From Limosilactobacillus oris (GTDB lineage: Bacteria; Bacillota; Bacilli; Lactobacillales; Lactobacillaceae), in contig NZ_CP104398.1 of assembly GCF_025311495.1 (NCBI RefSeq), forward strand, positions 1,364,001 to 1,428,000: a stretch of DNA of 64,000 bases. The letters run 5' to 3'. Shown one piece after another: positions 3,989 to 30,543 of this stretch. The first letter of the stretch is position 1. Every line of letters begins with the position of its first letter. Position numbers and translations under genes: made by a program. The notes beneath the pieces were generated by a model that was not told where the DNA came from, ran no database searches, and saw nothing but the letters and a program-made list of their open reading frames with translations.

Positions 3989-3999
3989 TAAACCTCTGA

Positions 4000-4072
4000 T
4001 GGGCAGTCAGGGGATCGAACCCTGGACCCACGGATTAAGAGTCCGTTGCTCTGCCAGCTGAGCTAACTGCCC
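4000..4072 (-). tRNA. tRNA-Lys(CTT), copy 2
   Basis: Identical over all 73 bases to copy 1 at 1203-1275: acceptor GGGCAGT/ACTGCCC, anticodon CTT in loop CTCTTAA, T-loop TTCGATC, CCA not encoded. Identity extends only a base or two beyond the tRNA (3999-4074), so the copies form a 76-bp direct repeat around the HxlR-reductase cassette. Confidence 0.96.
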
Positions 4073-4097
4073 ATAACGTTGTTAATCAACGTTAATA

Positions 4098-27671: not shown

Positions 27672-28661
27672 TTAGACCTCGTGTGGGGAGTGCTTTCCCG
27701 CGAGGATGAGCAGGACGTCTTCGAGGGCGAAGTCGACCATGTTCTTGACGGCCAGGTTGGTGAAGAAGGCGATGTGAGGCGTCAGGATGACGTTGTCCAT
27801 GGCGTGCAGCTCCTCCACGAGCGGAACGTCAGCGAGACCCTTCTCCCGACGGTCGGTCATCACTACCTCGTTTTCTCCCTCGAAGGTGTCGAGGGCCGCG
27901 GCGGCTAGCTGGTGGTCCTTCAAGGCCGCGACCAGGTCGGCAGTGACGACGACCGGTCCCCGGCTGGCGTTGACAAGACCCGCCGTTGGCTTCATCAGGG
28001 CCAGGTCCGGTGCGGCAATCAGACCGGTCGAAGTCGGGTTGAGGTCCACGTGGAGGGAAACCACGTCGCTTTGCCGGAGCAGGTCCTCTTTGGAAACGTA
28101 CTCGACAATTCCCCGCATTTCTTCACGGGGCTTGACGTCAAAGCCCAGGACCCGGGCACCGAGGGCCTTGAGTAGCTTGGCCAGGGTACCGCCGATCCGG
28201 CCGACCCCGATGATCCCGATGGTGGCCGTGTGGATTTCTAAGGCCTGTTCGTCACTGAACCAGCGGAAGTCGTTTTGGGCGACCTGGGCGTCGAAGCGGT
28301 AGGACTTGCGGAGCAGGCGGAAAATCTGCATAAGGGCGTGCTCGGCAACCGACCGGGGCGAGTATGCCGGGACGTTGGTAACGGTCAGCCCGTTGGCGTG
28401 GGCGGCTTGCAGGTCGACCATGTCAAAGCCGGCGGTCCGGGTGGCAATCTGCTTGAGCCCGTGCGCTTTGAGCTGGGGGTAGACGGCTGGGTCGACGGGG
28501 CTGCGCTGCTGGATTACCAGCCCGTCAACGTCCTTTGTCAGGTCCACCGCGTCGTCAATCAGCTTTGGCGTGGTGACGATGTCGACGTTATGTTCACGGG
28601 CAAATTGGTCAATGGCGGCCTGTTCGTCGTCCCGGACACTGGTCATTAAAATCTTAGTCAT
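27672..28661 (-). CDS. D-2-hydroxyacid dehydrogenase (D-LDH/D-HicDH family)
   Basis: 329-aa NAD-dependent dehydrogenase. NAD loop GVGRIGGTLAK, catalytic Arg in VNASRGPVV, Glu in LDTFEGENEV, and His in LTPHIAFFT. It resembles D-lactate dehydrogenase at 37.5 kb but is clearly divergent and is coupled to an aminotransferase (2 bp gap), so D-hydroxyisocaproate or D-phenyllactate production is more likely than lactate. AAGGAGG lies within the end of the aminotransferase gene, so translation is coupled. Confidence 0.87.
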   Translation of the reverse strand: MTKILMTSVRDDEQAAIDQFAREHNVDIVTTPKLIDDAVDLTKDVDGLVIQQRSPVDPAVYPQLKAHGLKQIATRTAGFDMVDLQAAHANGLTVTNVPAYSPRSVAEHALMQIFRLLRKSYRFDAQVAQNDFRWFSDEQALEIHTATIGIIGVGRIGGTLAKLLKALGARVLGFDVKPREEMRGIVEYVSKEDLLRQSDVVSLHVDLNPTSTGLIAAPDLALMKPTAGLVNASRGPVVVTADLVAALKDHQLAAAALDTFEGENEVVMTDRREKGLADVPLVEELHAMDNVILTPHIAFFTNLAVKNMVDFALEDVLLILAGKHSPHEV

Positions 28662-28663
28662 AG

Positions 28664-29848
28664 TTAGTCCTCCTTGAGAAATGCGGCGATGCGGTCAACG
28701 GCGGTTTTGAGATTTTCCATGCTGGTGGCGTAGCTGAGCCGCAGGTAGCCCTGCCCGCCGGCGCCAAAGTAGGAGCCAGGGATCACGGCGACCCGGCCTT
28801 TTTTGGCCAATGCAGTGGCGAAGGCAACGTCATCATTGCCGGCACTAGCAGGAATCTTTGCGAAGAGGTAGAAGGCCCCGTTTGGCGTTGCGGTTTCAAA
28901 ACCAAGCTTAGCGAGTGCGGCCACGAGGAAGTCCCGCCGTTCTTGGTAGGCGGCCTTCATTTGCTGGGTAGCTGCCTTCCCGGCTGCGGTACCGAAGGCC
29001 GCCGTGGCCGCTGCCATGGCCGAATCGGTCGCGGATGTAATCATCATTCCGCTGACGGCGCTGACCGGTCCCATCAATTCCCGGGGACCAGCGATAAAGC
29101 CAATCCGGTAGCCGGTCATGGCGTGGGACTTGGAGGCCCCGTTCAGGATGAGGGTCTGCTCGGGGATGAATTTGGCGATGGAGGTGTGCTGACCGTCGTA
29201 GACCAGCTCGGAGTAAATTTCATCCGCGATTACTACCAGGTCGGTGTTCTTAACCGTCATTGCCAGTTCCTCGACCTGCTGGGCGGAGTAGGTCACCCCA
29301 GTCGGGTTGGAGGGGTAGTTCAAAATCAAAGTCGTGGCACGGGGGTGGGCGGCAATGGTTTCTTTAAGCTGATCAGGAGTTAGGACAAAGTCGTGGTCGC
29401 TGGTGTCAATTTCAACCGGCTGGCCGCCTAGCATGGTAGTGACCGCCATGTACAACGGGAAGGTCGGGGTGGCGACTAGGATCTCGTCACCGGGATTGAT
29501 TAGGGCAGAGAGGGCGGCGTAGATTCCCTCGGTTGCGCCGATCGTCACCGCAATTTCACCGTTGGGATCATAGTCTAGTTGGTAGCGGTCCTTGAGGAAG
29601 TCGGCGATGGCCGCTCGCAGCTTGGCGGTACCGACAGCCGGCGCGTAGTGGGAGTCGTTATCAGTGATACTGTCGATGGCGGCCTGCTTCATGGCGTCAG
29701 GTACGTTGAAGTCGGGTTCCCCCAAGGTTAACTTGACGATTCCAGGGACGGCGCTGGCCTGGGCATCGAATTCCCGGATGCCAACCGGTTTAAGGCGGGT
29801 GAAGTTACGGTTGAGCTGGTTCATAATACTGGCTTTAGTTGTGGGCAT
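28664..29848 (-). CDS. araT: Aminotransferase class I/II, aromatic/PatA type
   Basis: 394-aa fold-type I PLP aminotransferase. Key parts: TLGEPDFNVPD, LNYPSNPTGVTY, Asp of VVIADEIYSELVY, Schiff-base Lys in LNGASKSHAMTGYRIGF, and the carboxylate Arg in GYLRLSYA. Family members interconvert aromatic amino acids (or aspartate) and their 2-oxoacids. The leader peptide with Tyr-Tyr-Phe-Trp-Phe ahead of the gene argues for the aromatic (AraT) assignment. The protein has no Trp at all. ATG 29848 has AAGGAGG 7 bases upstream. First gene of the operon with D-2-hydroxyacid dehydrogenase and ElaA-like protein: Phe to phenylpyruvate to D-phenyllactate is the expected route. Confidence 0.85.
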   Translation of the reverse strand: MPTTKASIMNQLNRNFTRLKPVGIREFDAQASAVPGIVKLTLGEPDFNVPDAMKQAAIDSITDNDSHYAPAVGTAKLRAAIADFLKDRYQLDYDPNGEIAVTIGATEGIYAALSALINPGDEILVATPTFPLYMAVTTMLGGQPVEIDTSDHDFVLTPDQLKETIAAHPRATTLILNYPSNPTGVTYSAQQVEELAMTVKNTDLVVIADEIYSELVYDGQHTSIAKFIPEQTLILNGASKSHAMTGYRIGFIAGPRELMGPVSAVSGMMITSATDSAMAAATAAFGTAAGKAATQQMKAAYQERRDFLVAALAKLGFETATPNGAFYLFAKIPASAGNDDVAFATALAKKGRVAVIPGSYFGAGGQGYLRLSYATSMENLKTAVDRIAAFLKED

Positions 29849-29872: not shown

Positions 29873-29911
29873 AAAAGACCCGGATGACGATTAAACGTAT
29901 CCGGGTCTTTT
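29873..29911 (-). terminator. Leader terminator of the aromatic aminotransferase operon
   Basis: AAAAGACCCGGAT and ATCCGGGTCTTTT form a perfect 13-bp stem ending in a T run, 25 bases before the araT start. Its 5' arm is also complementary to an upstream segment, see the array at 29877-30007. Confidence 0.9.
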
Positions 29912-30007
29912 CATCAGATTGGAATGAGTATGATGAAGGAGTATTCCGGATACTTGGCAATTATCCGGAAGTCCCAATGATAAAATCACTGCTGGCTAGC
30001 GGATTAA
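29877..30007 (-). promoter_or_regulatory. Five-segment alternating attenuator RNA
   Basis: Reading the minus strand: segment 1 TTAATCCG (30007-30000, inside the last leader codons), 2 TTCCGGATAA (29970-29961), 3 GTATCCGGAA (29953-29944), 4 CCCGGATAC (29905-29897), 5 ATCCGGGTC (29885-29877). Each pairs with its neighbour: 1:2 (7 bp, one bulge), 2:3 (9 bp), 3:4 (8 bp), 4:5 is the terminator. A ribosome that reaches the stop covers 1, so 2:3 and the 4:5 terminator form. A ribosome stalled at the aromatic codons leaves 1 free, giving 1:2 and the 3:4 antiterminator. The pairings are seen; the switch is inferred. Confidence 0.78.
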
Positions 30008-30064
30008 GCTGCTAAACCAGAAGTAGTATGCATGATTTACTTGTTGCATCGCTGATTTCATCAT
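29996..30064 (-). CDS. 22-aa leader peptide with Tyr-Tyr-Phe-Trp-Phe
   Basis: ATG 30064 with AAGGAG 6 bases upstream; the ORF ends at TAG 29996. Residues 11-19 read HAYYFWFSS: five aromatic codons in a row (TAC TAC TTC TGG TTT), including one of each aromatic amino acid. It sits between a strong promoter and the alternating stems and terminator that precede araT. This is the arrangement of classical trp/phe attenuators. The peptide is most likely only a sensor of aromatic aminoacyl-tRNA supply. Confidence 0.85.
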   Translation of the reverse strand: MMKSAMQQVNHAYYFWFSSLIR

Positions 30065-30095
30065 TACGGTCTCCTTGATTAACTGATTATTAGCT

Positions 30096-30123
30096 ATTCT
30101 AATTAATTTCTAATGATTGTCAA
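30096..30123 (-). promoter_or_regulatory. Promoter of the aromatic leader/araT operon
   Basis: TTGACA (30118-30123), 16-bp spacer, TAGAAT (30096-30101) on the minus strand, about 32 bp upstream of the leader ATG. The region 30124-30246 shows nothing else I can name. Confidence 0.8.
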
Positions 30124-30300: not shown

Positions 30301-30543
30301 ATGCAGATCGATATCAAGAGATACTTAGAAGTCCACAATTTAACGATTTACCAAGTATCTAAGCATTCTGGCTATGGCTACACGACTTTACATAAATCAT
30401 TCAATAAACCACAATCGAGTTCTACGTCGCTAAATCTACGCGACCTTGATGCCTTGGCACGAGCTGAGCACAAGGCGATGTGGGAAGTCCTTCGTGATTT
30501 AGAGAGTCATTATCTGAAACATGATGATGACGAGTCGTTGTAG
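30301..30543 (+). CDS. Small helix-turn-helix protein
   Basis: 80 aa, ATG with GAAGGAAG upstream. LTIYQVSKHSGYGYTTLHKSFNK looks like a Cro/C1-type helix-turn-helix (helix, Gly turn, recognition helix), followed by LNLRDLDALARAEHKAMWEVLRDL and an acidic tail. It precedes clpL by 89 bp on the same strand. I cannot assign a target; a role in the control of clpL is possible but unproven. Confidence 0.7.
   Translation: MQIDIKRYLEVHNLTIYQVSKHSGYGYTTLHKSFNKPQSSSTSLNLRDLDALARAEHKAMWEVLRDLESHYLKHDDDESL

Follow-up and report, generated by a model that had tools for sequence, protein, structure and literature searches.

A conserved aromatic leader peptide and a predicted six-segment attenuator upstream of araT in Limosilactobacillus oris and other Lactobacillales

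Organization of the araT locus

The minus strand of the 64-kb window (the whole stretch of DNA analyzed, from a 2.0 Mb genome in a single contig) carries, in order, a promoter, a Shine-Dalgarno sequence, a short leader ORF, CCGGATA/TATCCGG repeats, a terminator, an araT-like aminotransferase gene, and a dehydrogenase gene. A promoter scan together with the sequence itself placed a sigma-70-type promoter at 30096–30123, with TTGACA (30123–30118) and TAGAAT (30101–30096) separated by a 16-nt spacer and matching 11 of 12 consensus positions; the region held 4 promoter-like sites, compared with 1.7 in shuffles. Both promoter words are kept in the genus alignment, as is the Shine-Dalgarno sequence AAGGAG at 30071–30076. 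The leader ORF (29996–30064), identified by ORF calling and by its homologues, comprises 22 codons and encodes MMKSAMQQVNHAYYFWFSSLIR. It includes a conserved block of five consecutive aromatic codons, TAC TAC TTC TGG TTT (30014–30028), the putative sensing codons. Reading the window in six frames gave three runs of at least five aromatic codons, where 30 first-order Markov resamplings had a mean of 0.3, and the run in the leader was the only one of the three to contain Tyr, Phe, and Trp together (resampling mean of 0.07).

The first gene predicted to be controlled by the leader (28664–29848) encodes a 394-aa araT-like aminotransferase with a PF00155 domain, for which the best NCBIfam model, PRK07309, scored below its cut-off. 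Among the best 80 of 588 named araT loci, the closest to it was that of Limosilactobacillus viscerum (85%). The ATG (29848) lies 25 nt from the end of the terminator hairpin. The second gene of the operon (27672–28661), encoding a D-2-hydroxyacid dehydrogenase of 329 aa (PF02826/PF00389), starts 2 bases past the end of araT and has its own AAGGAGG. A preliminary description of this DNA, made from the letters alone, had listed the promoter, AAGGAG, the 22-codon ORF, the five aromatic codons, the CCGGATA/TATCCGG segments, and the terminator, and a recheck of the sequence found every one of them where it had been placed on the minus strand.

Leader RNA and its alternative pairings

The leader RNA (231 nt) folds with an energy of −75.4 kcal/mol (z = −6.3 relative to 200 shuffles). 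Based on duplex searches and alignments, segment 1 (30010–30025; TACTTCTGGTTTAGC) lies inside the ORF and consists of the aromatic codon stretch, while segment 2 (29986–30004; ATCCGCTAGCCAG) covers the ORF end, the stop codon, and the bases just after; GCTAGCCAG, located at and past the stop codon, is the partner of the Tyr-Phe-Trp-Phe codons, and covariation also supports these two segments. Segment 2 can pair with either segment 1 or segment 3 (29958–29971; CTTCCGGATAATTG), and segment 4 (29945–29954; AGTATCCGGA) with either segment 3 or segment 5, segments 3 and 4 being defined by duplex search and pairing counts. Segment 5 (29896–29907; GACCCGGATACG), found by duplex search, would act as antiterminator with segment 4 or as terminator with segment 6 (29877–29885; ATCCGGGTC), the latter being the terminator 3′ arm identified by folding and duplex search. 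The alternatives are thus 1:2, 3:4, and 5:6 (terminate) versus 2:3 and 4:5 (read through), which is the layout of the his attenuator. Five alternating pairing segments had been claimed previously; those five exist, but the count was one short, as the aromatic codons themselves form a further segment. The reported distance of 18 bases from the second Tyr codon to the first of the five is exact for ATCCG at 30004. In the minimum-energy fold, the leader start-codon region (30054–30066) can also form a 13-bp helix with 29987–29975, which possibly limits re-initiation or holds an untranslated leader.

The intrinsic terminator, comprising the hairpin and the first U tract, occupies 29873–29913 and has a core of −20.3 kcal/mol (RNAfold). 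A generic terminator scan reported no terminator at the leader, probably because that scan admits neither bulges nor loops >8. For all 57 leaders of the folding set (57 of 57), a finder designed to seek a hairpin with a U run behind it returned one, the best having energies from −14.7 to −29.0 kcal/mol. A first version of this finder over-extended some hairpins, after which its criteria were tightened. One locus (L092), whose aromatic block is interrupted by a break in frame, yielded no intact leader and was left out of the folding sets, and the automatic segment assignment for another (L034) looks wrong, with 3:4 at −1.4 kcal/mol. Rfam gave no meaningful match at the leader at either gathering or permissive thresholds (all nine permissive matches were far below gathering scores), and matches were likewise absent from eight loci of other genera.

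Distribution of the leader in the genus, family, and order

A protein search of 50 genomes of the genus provided the upstream regions of 39 araT loci, one per genome, and we found the leader in 36 of them. Of the three leaderless loci, one (L017) has a homologue of the window's 30301–30543 ORF directly upstream of araT, as judged by eye, another (L008) stands at a contig edge that leaves only 107 nt, and the third (L039) is 53% identical and probably a paralogue. The best matches in the other 11 genomes were 47%–50% identical and were kept outside the count; G028 has a leader at a contig edge. Aromatic blocks in the genus read AYYFWF, AYAFWF, AYDFWF, AYDYWF, AYVFWF, AFSYWFW, AFYYWFW, YLAWFFF, AFYAYWF, YYCWFW, and FYFWF. 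The aromatic codons are therefore kept together with the terminator, in these 36 of 39 genus loci as well as in other genera; conservation of the terminator without the ORF or its codons, named beforehand as the outcome that would speak against an attenuator, was not what we found.

When 396 genomes of the family were scanned with an exact leader pattern, most hits were due to chance, and covariance models were used instead. The first of these (R1), built from 29 genus sequences and searched in the same 396 genomes, led to 31 loci that were read closely, 23 of which had a leader-like block (including a second copy in the window's genome, G028, and the frame-broken L092). Seven R1 matches (L103, L104, L109, L110, L111, L114, and L115) proved to be chance on close reading, and L093, cut by a contig end, was kept outside the leader count. 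Weaker R1 matches (in 87 of the 396 genomes, with E up to 0.5) were not counted, those above E of ~0.01 being partly chance. The second model (R2), built from 34 diverse sequences, was searched in 395 genomes of the order and 378 of the class. In the order, 23 of 30 loci read had a leader, including the window itself and some loci already found, and the matches at L160, L163, L164, L166, L167, L169, and L170 were chance. Outside the order, the search of the 378 class genomes (E up to 0.01) yielded three matches, all of them leaderless.

Among named araT loci (the best 80 of 588), a leader was called in 35, comprising 31 found by R2, 3 by ORF reading (L219, L244, and L246), and 1 by hand (L245, where the leader lies 503 nt upstream of araT). 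As R2 missed the latter four and the ORF search spanned 450 nt upstream, "no leader" here means that none was called. Leaders were called in Limosilactobacillus and in ten genera besides, namely Weissella, Leuconostoc, Lacticaseibacillus, Furfurilactobacillus, Lactiplantibacillus, Secundilactobacillus, Lentilactobacillus, Agrilactobacillus, Liquorilactobacillus, and Sporolactobacillus. On a tree of these 80 araT sequences and that of the window, leader presence requires 9 changes, compared with 26.6 in shuffles, with L245 counted as lacking. All 35 leader rows fall within two araT clades of 51 rows together, 16 of which were without a called leader (including L245, later found to have one), and none was called in the other 30 rows. 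By sequence comparison, the window's leader is one case of an element present in many genera and no oddity of Limosilactobacillus.

An inserted GTGTTTG...GTGCAAACAC...TTTGCATC-like element was seen by eye between leader and terminator in L157, L165, L244, L219, and L245, a variant common to Lactiplantibacillus-like, Liquorilactobacillus, and Sporolactobacillus loci.

Amino acids encoded by the aromatic block

Codons for Tyr, Phe, and Trp are all present in 66 of 71 distinct araT leaders, with Trp missing in the other 5; this set was drawn from 30 of the 35 named leader loci plus the genus and family leaders, leaving out those of the order search. Trp is also missing in L162, L173, and L245, which are outside the set, and 3 of the 5 distinct leaders found before carrier genes have all three amino acids. 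Leaders reading YYFKYF, FYFKYF, YYFRFF, and FFTRFF rule out that Trp is indispensable. Since some leaders have dropped Trp, what they all have in common is Tyr/Phe, and most of them read Trp as well. The earlier proposal of a single leader polling Tyr, Phe, and Trp together thus agrees with the codons of most leaders, but not as a necessity for Trp.

Within the block, Tyr and Phe interchange, position 2 is taken by A, D, V, S, or N in some leaders, and the distance from the block to the stop codon varies. A tripeptide, [QHE][LVIM][NKS], occurs in 42 of 85 distinct leaders, mostly 2–3 residues before the aromatic block; its codons show synonymous changes, and it lies outside any pairing segment found.

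Conservation of the pairing segments

Pairing of segments 1 and 2 received the clearest comparative support. In the 34 sequences chosen for diversity, 94.4% of 1:2 cells were paired compared with 86.0% in shuffles, and 27 double changes were observed compared with 8.6, with 0 of 500 shuffles reaching either measure. Individual substitutions illustrate this: in L094, L095, L097, and L098, TGG TTT has become TGG TAT and segment 2 has changed from AACCA to TACCA, while in L150 and L151, where TGG has become AAG, segment 2 reads ACTTAA. As segment 2 of the AAG leaders compensates in this way, the 1:2 stem outlives the Trp codon. Taken jointly within the genus, 1:2 and 3:4 were paired in 90.9% of cells versus 88.0% (0 of 500 shuffles).

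Support for 2:3 was modest. Within the genus, 66.8% of 2:3 cells were paired, a level reached by 0 of 500 shuffles (59.8%), and double-change cells numbered 21 versus 12.5 (4 of 500), while the number of 2:3 pairs having a double change showed no excess (6 versus 5.6). Clades use slightly different 2:3 registers and also different words for this pairing, with ATCCG/CGGAT in the window's clade, CCTAG/CTAGG, CCCAG/CTGGG (L028), and CCCGAAA/TTTCGGG (L034) elsewhere in the genus, and TGATCTGTG/CACGCAGATCA in L099 and its like. The preliminary description had suggested looking upstream of araT in Limosilactobacillus for a conserved ORF rich in Y/F/W codons and for covarying CCGGATA/TATCCGG stems; the ORF is conserved and 1:2 covaries, but the words as such are clade-specific.

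When segments were paired with those of other leaders, a leader's own partner beat 90% of foreign ones in 11 (1:2), 8 (2:3), 17 (3:4), and 15 (4:5) of 26 leaders, a moderate specificity that is probably due to motifs that clades have in common. For 4:5, the comparative support comes from this own-versus-foreign comparison. Based on these sequence comparisons, a mutually exclusive antiterminator chain is conserved, strongly for 1:2 and modestly for 2:3.

Modeled effect of ribosome position

To relate ribosome position to pairing, transcripts ending past segment 5 were folded while a ribosome footprint, extending 15 nt upstream and 12 nt downstream of the A-site codon, was barred from pairing. 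This model yields equilibrium energies without kinetics, and the score is the log10 odds of 4:5 over 3:4; it was used in place of an earlier scan of terminator-arm sequestration, which gave a flat profile in the window's clade. When the start site was left free, placing a ribosome on the aromatic codons gave a higher score than placing one at the stop codon (by >0.3 log10) in 43 of 57 leaders and a lower one in 4, and a higher score than no ribosome in 40, with a lower one in 1. When a following ribosome was assumed to occupy the start site, the aromatic position exceeded the stop position in 54 of 57 leaders (lower in 2; median difference of 3.9 log10) and exceeded no ribosome in 52. L034 and L026 behaved in the opposite direction even with the start occupied.

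The window's own leader showed no switch with the start site free (1.77 with no ribosome, 1.76 on the aromatic codons, and 1.70 at the stop), probably because the 13-bp start-region helix crosses 2:3. With the start occupied, its scores were +3.02, +2.97, +2.32, +1.81, and +1.66 on the successive Tyr, Tyr, Phe, Trp, and Phe codons and −1.96 at the stop, and in the window's clade the effect mostly requires an occupied start site. As the leaders are related by descent, these counts are not independent, and they were collapsed to 26 non-redundant leaders for a positional profile. In 25 of the 26, the maximum fell within or beside the aromatic block. The averaged optimum spans the block, and a 3-nt change in the assumed footprint shifts it by one codon. 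In this model, a ribosome on the aromatic codons favors the antiterminator, for the window's own leader only when the start is occupied.

Genes downstream of the leader and host metabolism

A dehydrogenase gene was found within ~110 nt after araT in 29 of 35 loci with a leader and in 0 of 45 without a called one (28 of 34 versus 1 of 46 before L245 was reassigned), with the sequence ending within 170 nt of araT, too soon to show such a gene, in L186, which has a leader, and in L204 and L242, which do not. In Weissella confusa (L178) and two Leuconostoc species (L179 and L183), a PTS_EIIC_2 gene (PF13303) follows araT, replacing the dehydrogenase. The leader also precedes PTS_EIIC_2 without araT at four loci (L086, L088, L090, and L091, with Pfam run on the first two), and the window's genome has a second leader of this kind at C1:1549897–1549984 (L100), encoding MTTLATVKANNVFFWFWNSHS, with Phe and Trp without Tyr, followed by a terminator and then PTS_EIIC_2. 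At one further locus (L106), a leader stands before an APC-type permease, for which the nearest NCBIfam model, BcaP, was below cut-off. In another Lactobacillales family, the leader precedes a gene for DAHP synthase, the first enzyme of aromatic biosynthesis, in two genomes (L159 and L161, the latter identified by eye from the same start sequence) and araT in a third (L149).

In the window's genome, we found no prephenate dehydratase, TrpA, or AroA, the proteins of the EPSP-synthase family being two MurA only, and its host looks like an aromatic auxotroph from gene content. Without AroA, prephenate dehydratase, and TrpA, araT cannot complete the shikimate pathway in this host, and a switch serving aromatic biosynthesis there is ruled out; as the host looks auxotrophic, the regulon would instead serve uptake and interconversion. 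No match to the PTS_EIIC_2 protein came up in a search of solved structures. Its shared control and its place in the operon make this protein a candidate aromatic carrier.

Three minor features were observed at these loci. A transposase-like ORF was seen by eye farther downstream of the second leader in the window's genome, araT contains two in-frame stop codons in one species (L026), and the dehydrogenase gene of L007 was matched in two pieces.

A probable attenuator and its alternatives

Comparison across genomes demonstrates that a translatable leader is conserved along with a chain of six segments and a terminator, and that these are linked to araT with the dehydrogenase and to a membrane carrier. 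We consider it likely that the parts make up a transcription attenuator that works through the ribosome, has the topology of the his type, and uses its leader peptide to read mixed aromatic codons. When charged tRNA-Tyr, -Phe, or -Trp runs short, the ribosome would wait on the aromatic codons and cover segment 1, so that 2:3 and 4:5 pair, leaving segment 6 without a partner and allowing RNA polymerase to continue. A ribosome reaching the stop codon would cover segment 2, allowing 3:4 and the 5:6 terminator to form, and with no translation, 1:2 would form and the terminator would win again. Aromatic shortage would thereby switch on the operon (aromatic amino acid to aryl-pyruvate to aryl-lactate and back) and the carrier. 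The conserved leader and codons, the compensated pairing, and the in silico ribosome folding are all consistent with the aromatic attenuator put forward in the preliminary description.

The simplest interpretation is that the leader responds to shortage, which suits DAHP synthase and carriers as targets. Together, araT and the dehydrogenase are generally regarded as catabolic, and switching on a mainly catabolic enzyme pair under shortage counts against this reading and needs explaining. A nascent-chain sensor of excess, in which the peptide would stall in a TnaC-like manner when free aromatics are abundant and turn on a catabolic operon, would suit both the plausibly catabolic nature of the genes and the apparent auxotrophy of the host. 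The same RNA logic would serve any stall on the aromatic block, and the tripeptide shared by about half of the distinct leaders outside the pairing segments agrees with a role of the nascent chain. To our knowledge, however, arrest peptides require fixed residues near the stall site, whereas residues of the block are interchangeable here and the block-to-stop distance is variable; with DAHP synthase and carrier targets fitting shortage as well, we regard a sensor of excess as unlikely.

Amino acid sensing itself could be dispensed with if the leader were simply a translated upstream ORF coupling translation or growth to antitermination, as a slow ribosome at that place would suffice for the switch. 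This is very improbable, as the aromatic block persists across many genera with F and Y replacing each other, the remaining peptide being variable, and as several targets are aromatic genes. A T-box, riboswitch, or TRAP-like element with an accidental ORF is hardly credible: although Firmicutes employ T-boxes widely and the window's genome has 26 T-box (RF00230) matches (E up to 0.001), of which 7 exceed the family cut-off, none lies at araT or at the second leader, Rfam is silent at the leader and in the eight loci of other genera, and the ORF is conserved.

Returning to the attenuator that senses shortage, we lean toward a wider reading in which it belongs to a pan-aromatic leader regulon that is old in Lactobacillaceae, reads Tyr, Phe, and usually Trp, and controls an aryl-lactate operon, PTS_EIIC_2 as an aromatic carrier, an APC permease, and, in another family, DAHP synthase, perhaps assisted by the nascent chain. 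Phenyllactate, 4-hydroxyphenyllactate, and indolelactate from lactic acid bacteria are food-preserving and gut-signaling compounds, and if this reading is true, the operon that most plausibly makes them gains a named RNA switch. Lactobacilli, reputed users of T-boxes, would then run a leader-peptide regulon beside the 26 T-box matches in one genome, and PTS_EIIC_2 proteins sharing the leader or operon would gain aromatic uptake as a functional hypothesis.

Comparison with known attenuators

The his operon attenuator of Salmonella and E. coli has six segments, A–F. The araT leader resembles it in its clustered codons, in the alternatives 1:2, 3:4, and 5:6 versus 2:3 and 4:5, and in having the sensing codons in or next to segment 1; it differs in its mixed aromatic codons, as opposed to a His run, and in its occurrence in Lactobacillaceae, the likeness described here being one of layout. 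The enteric trp, pheA, and pheST attenuators have leader peptides that read one aromatic amino acid each, and differ from the araT leader both in this and in preceding biosynthesis or synthetase genes. In TnaC of E. coli, free Trp stalls the nascent chain and antitermination proceeds through Rho, unlike the six-segment chain described here. The two are alike in pairing a leader peptide related to Trp with aromatic catabolism, as far as the TnaC work is outlined in PMC8429421.

The general mechanism of his attenuation is described in PMC9413887. According to PMC2965389 and PMC9413887, His leader-peptide attenuators occur in the Bacillus cereus group and other Firmicutes, where leader-peptide transcription attenuation replaces T-boxes, as it would at araT, albeit for histidine, other genes, and other clades; Lactobacillales are stated to use His T-boxes (PMC9413887). 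The ilv-leu leader of Staphylococcus aureus likewise reads several related amino acids (Ile/Leu) with a terminator before the operon, but these are branched-chain, and its antiterminator is described as pairing with the poly-U tail (PMC5794164). The uORFC-13-1 motif before aroF in Acholeplasma shares a predicted uORF with Phe codon(s), a promoter, a terminator, and DAHP synthase as the product of the gene controlled; it has at least one Phe and 24 examples, from Acholeplasma and environmental sequences, and the part of the source dealing with it mentions neither a mixed aromatic block nor araT (PMC8632094). Trp attenuators are known in Actinobacteria (PMC1262725), and the main text of a T-box survey that names Lactobacillus transporters contains neither "araT" nor "aminotransferase" (PMC2494555).

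Among the literature matches listed, with subscription journals mostly outside the scope, we found no description of an aromatic leader peptide in Lactobacillales. The previous suggestion that such a leader is undescribed in a lactobacillus therefore holds for Rfam and the literature searched, but leader-peptide attenuation in Firmicutes is itself known; as such attenuators are known or predicted there for His, Leu/Ile, and Phe, the novelty is confined to the aromatic variant of lactobacilli.

Other features of the window

Apart from the araT locus, a group II intron match was observed at 947–1023 on the plus strand of the window, and two tRNA-Lys (ctt) genes, ~2.7 kb apart, at 1202–1276 and 3998–4073 on the minus strand.
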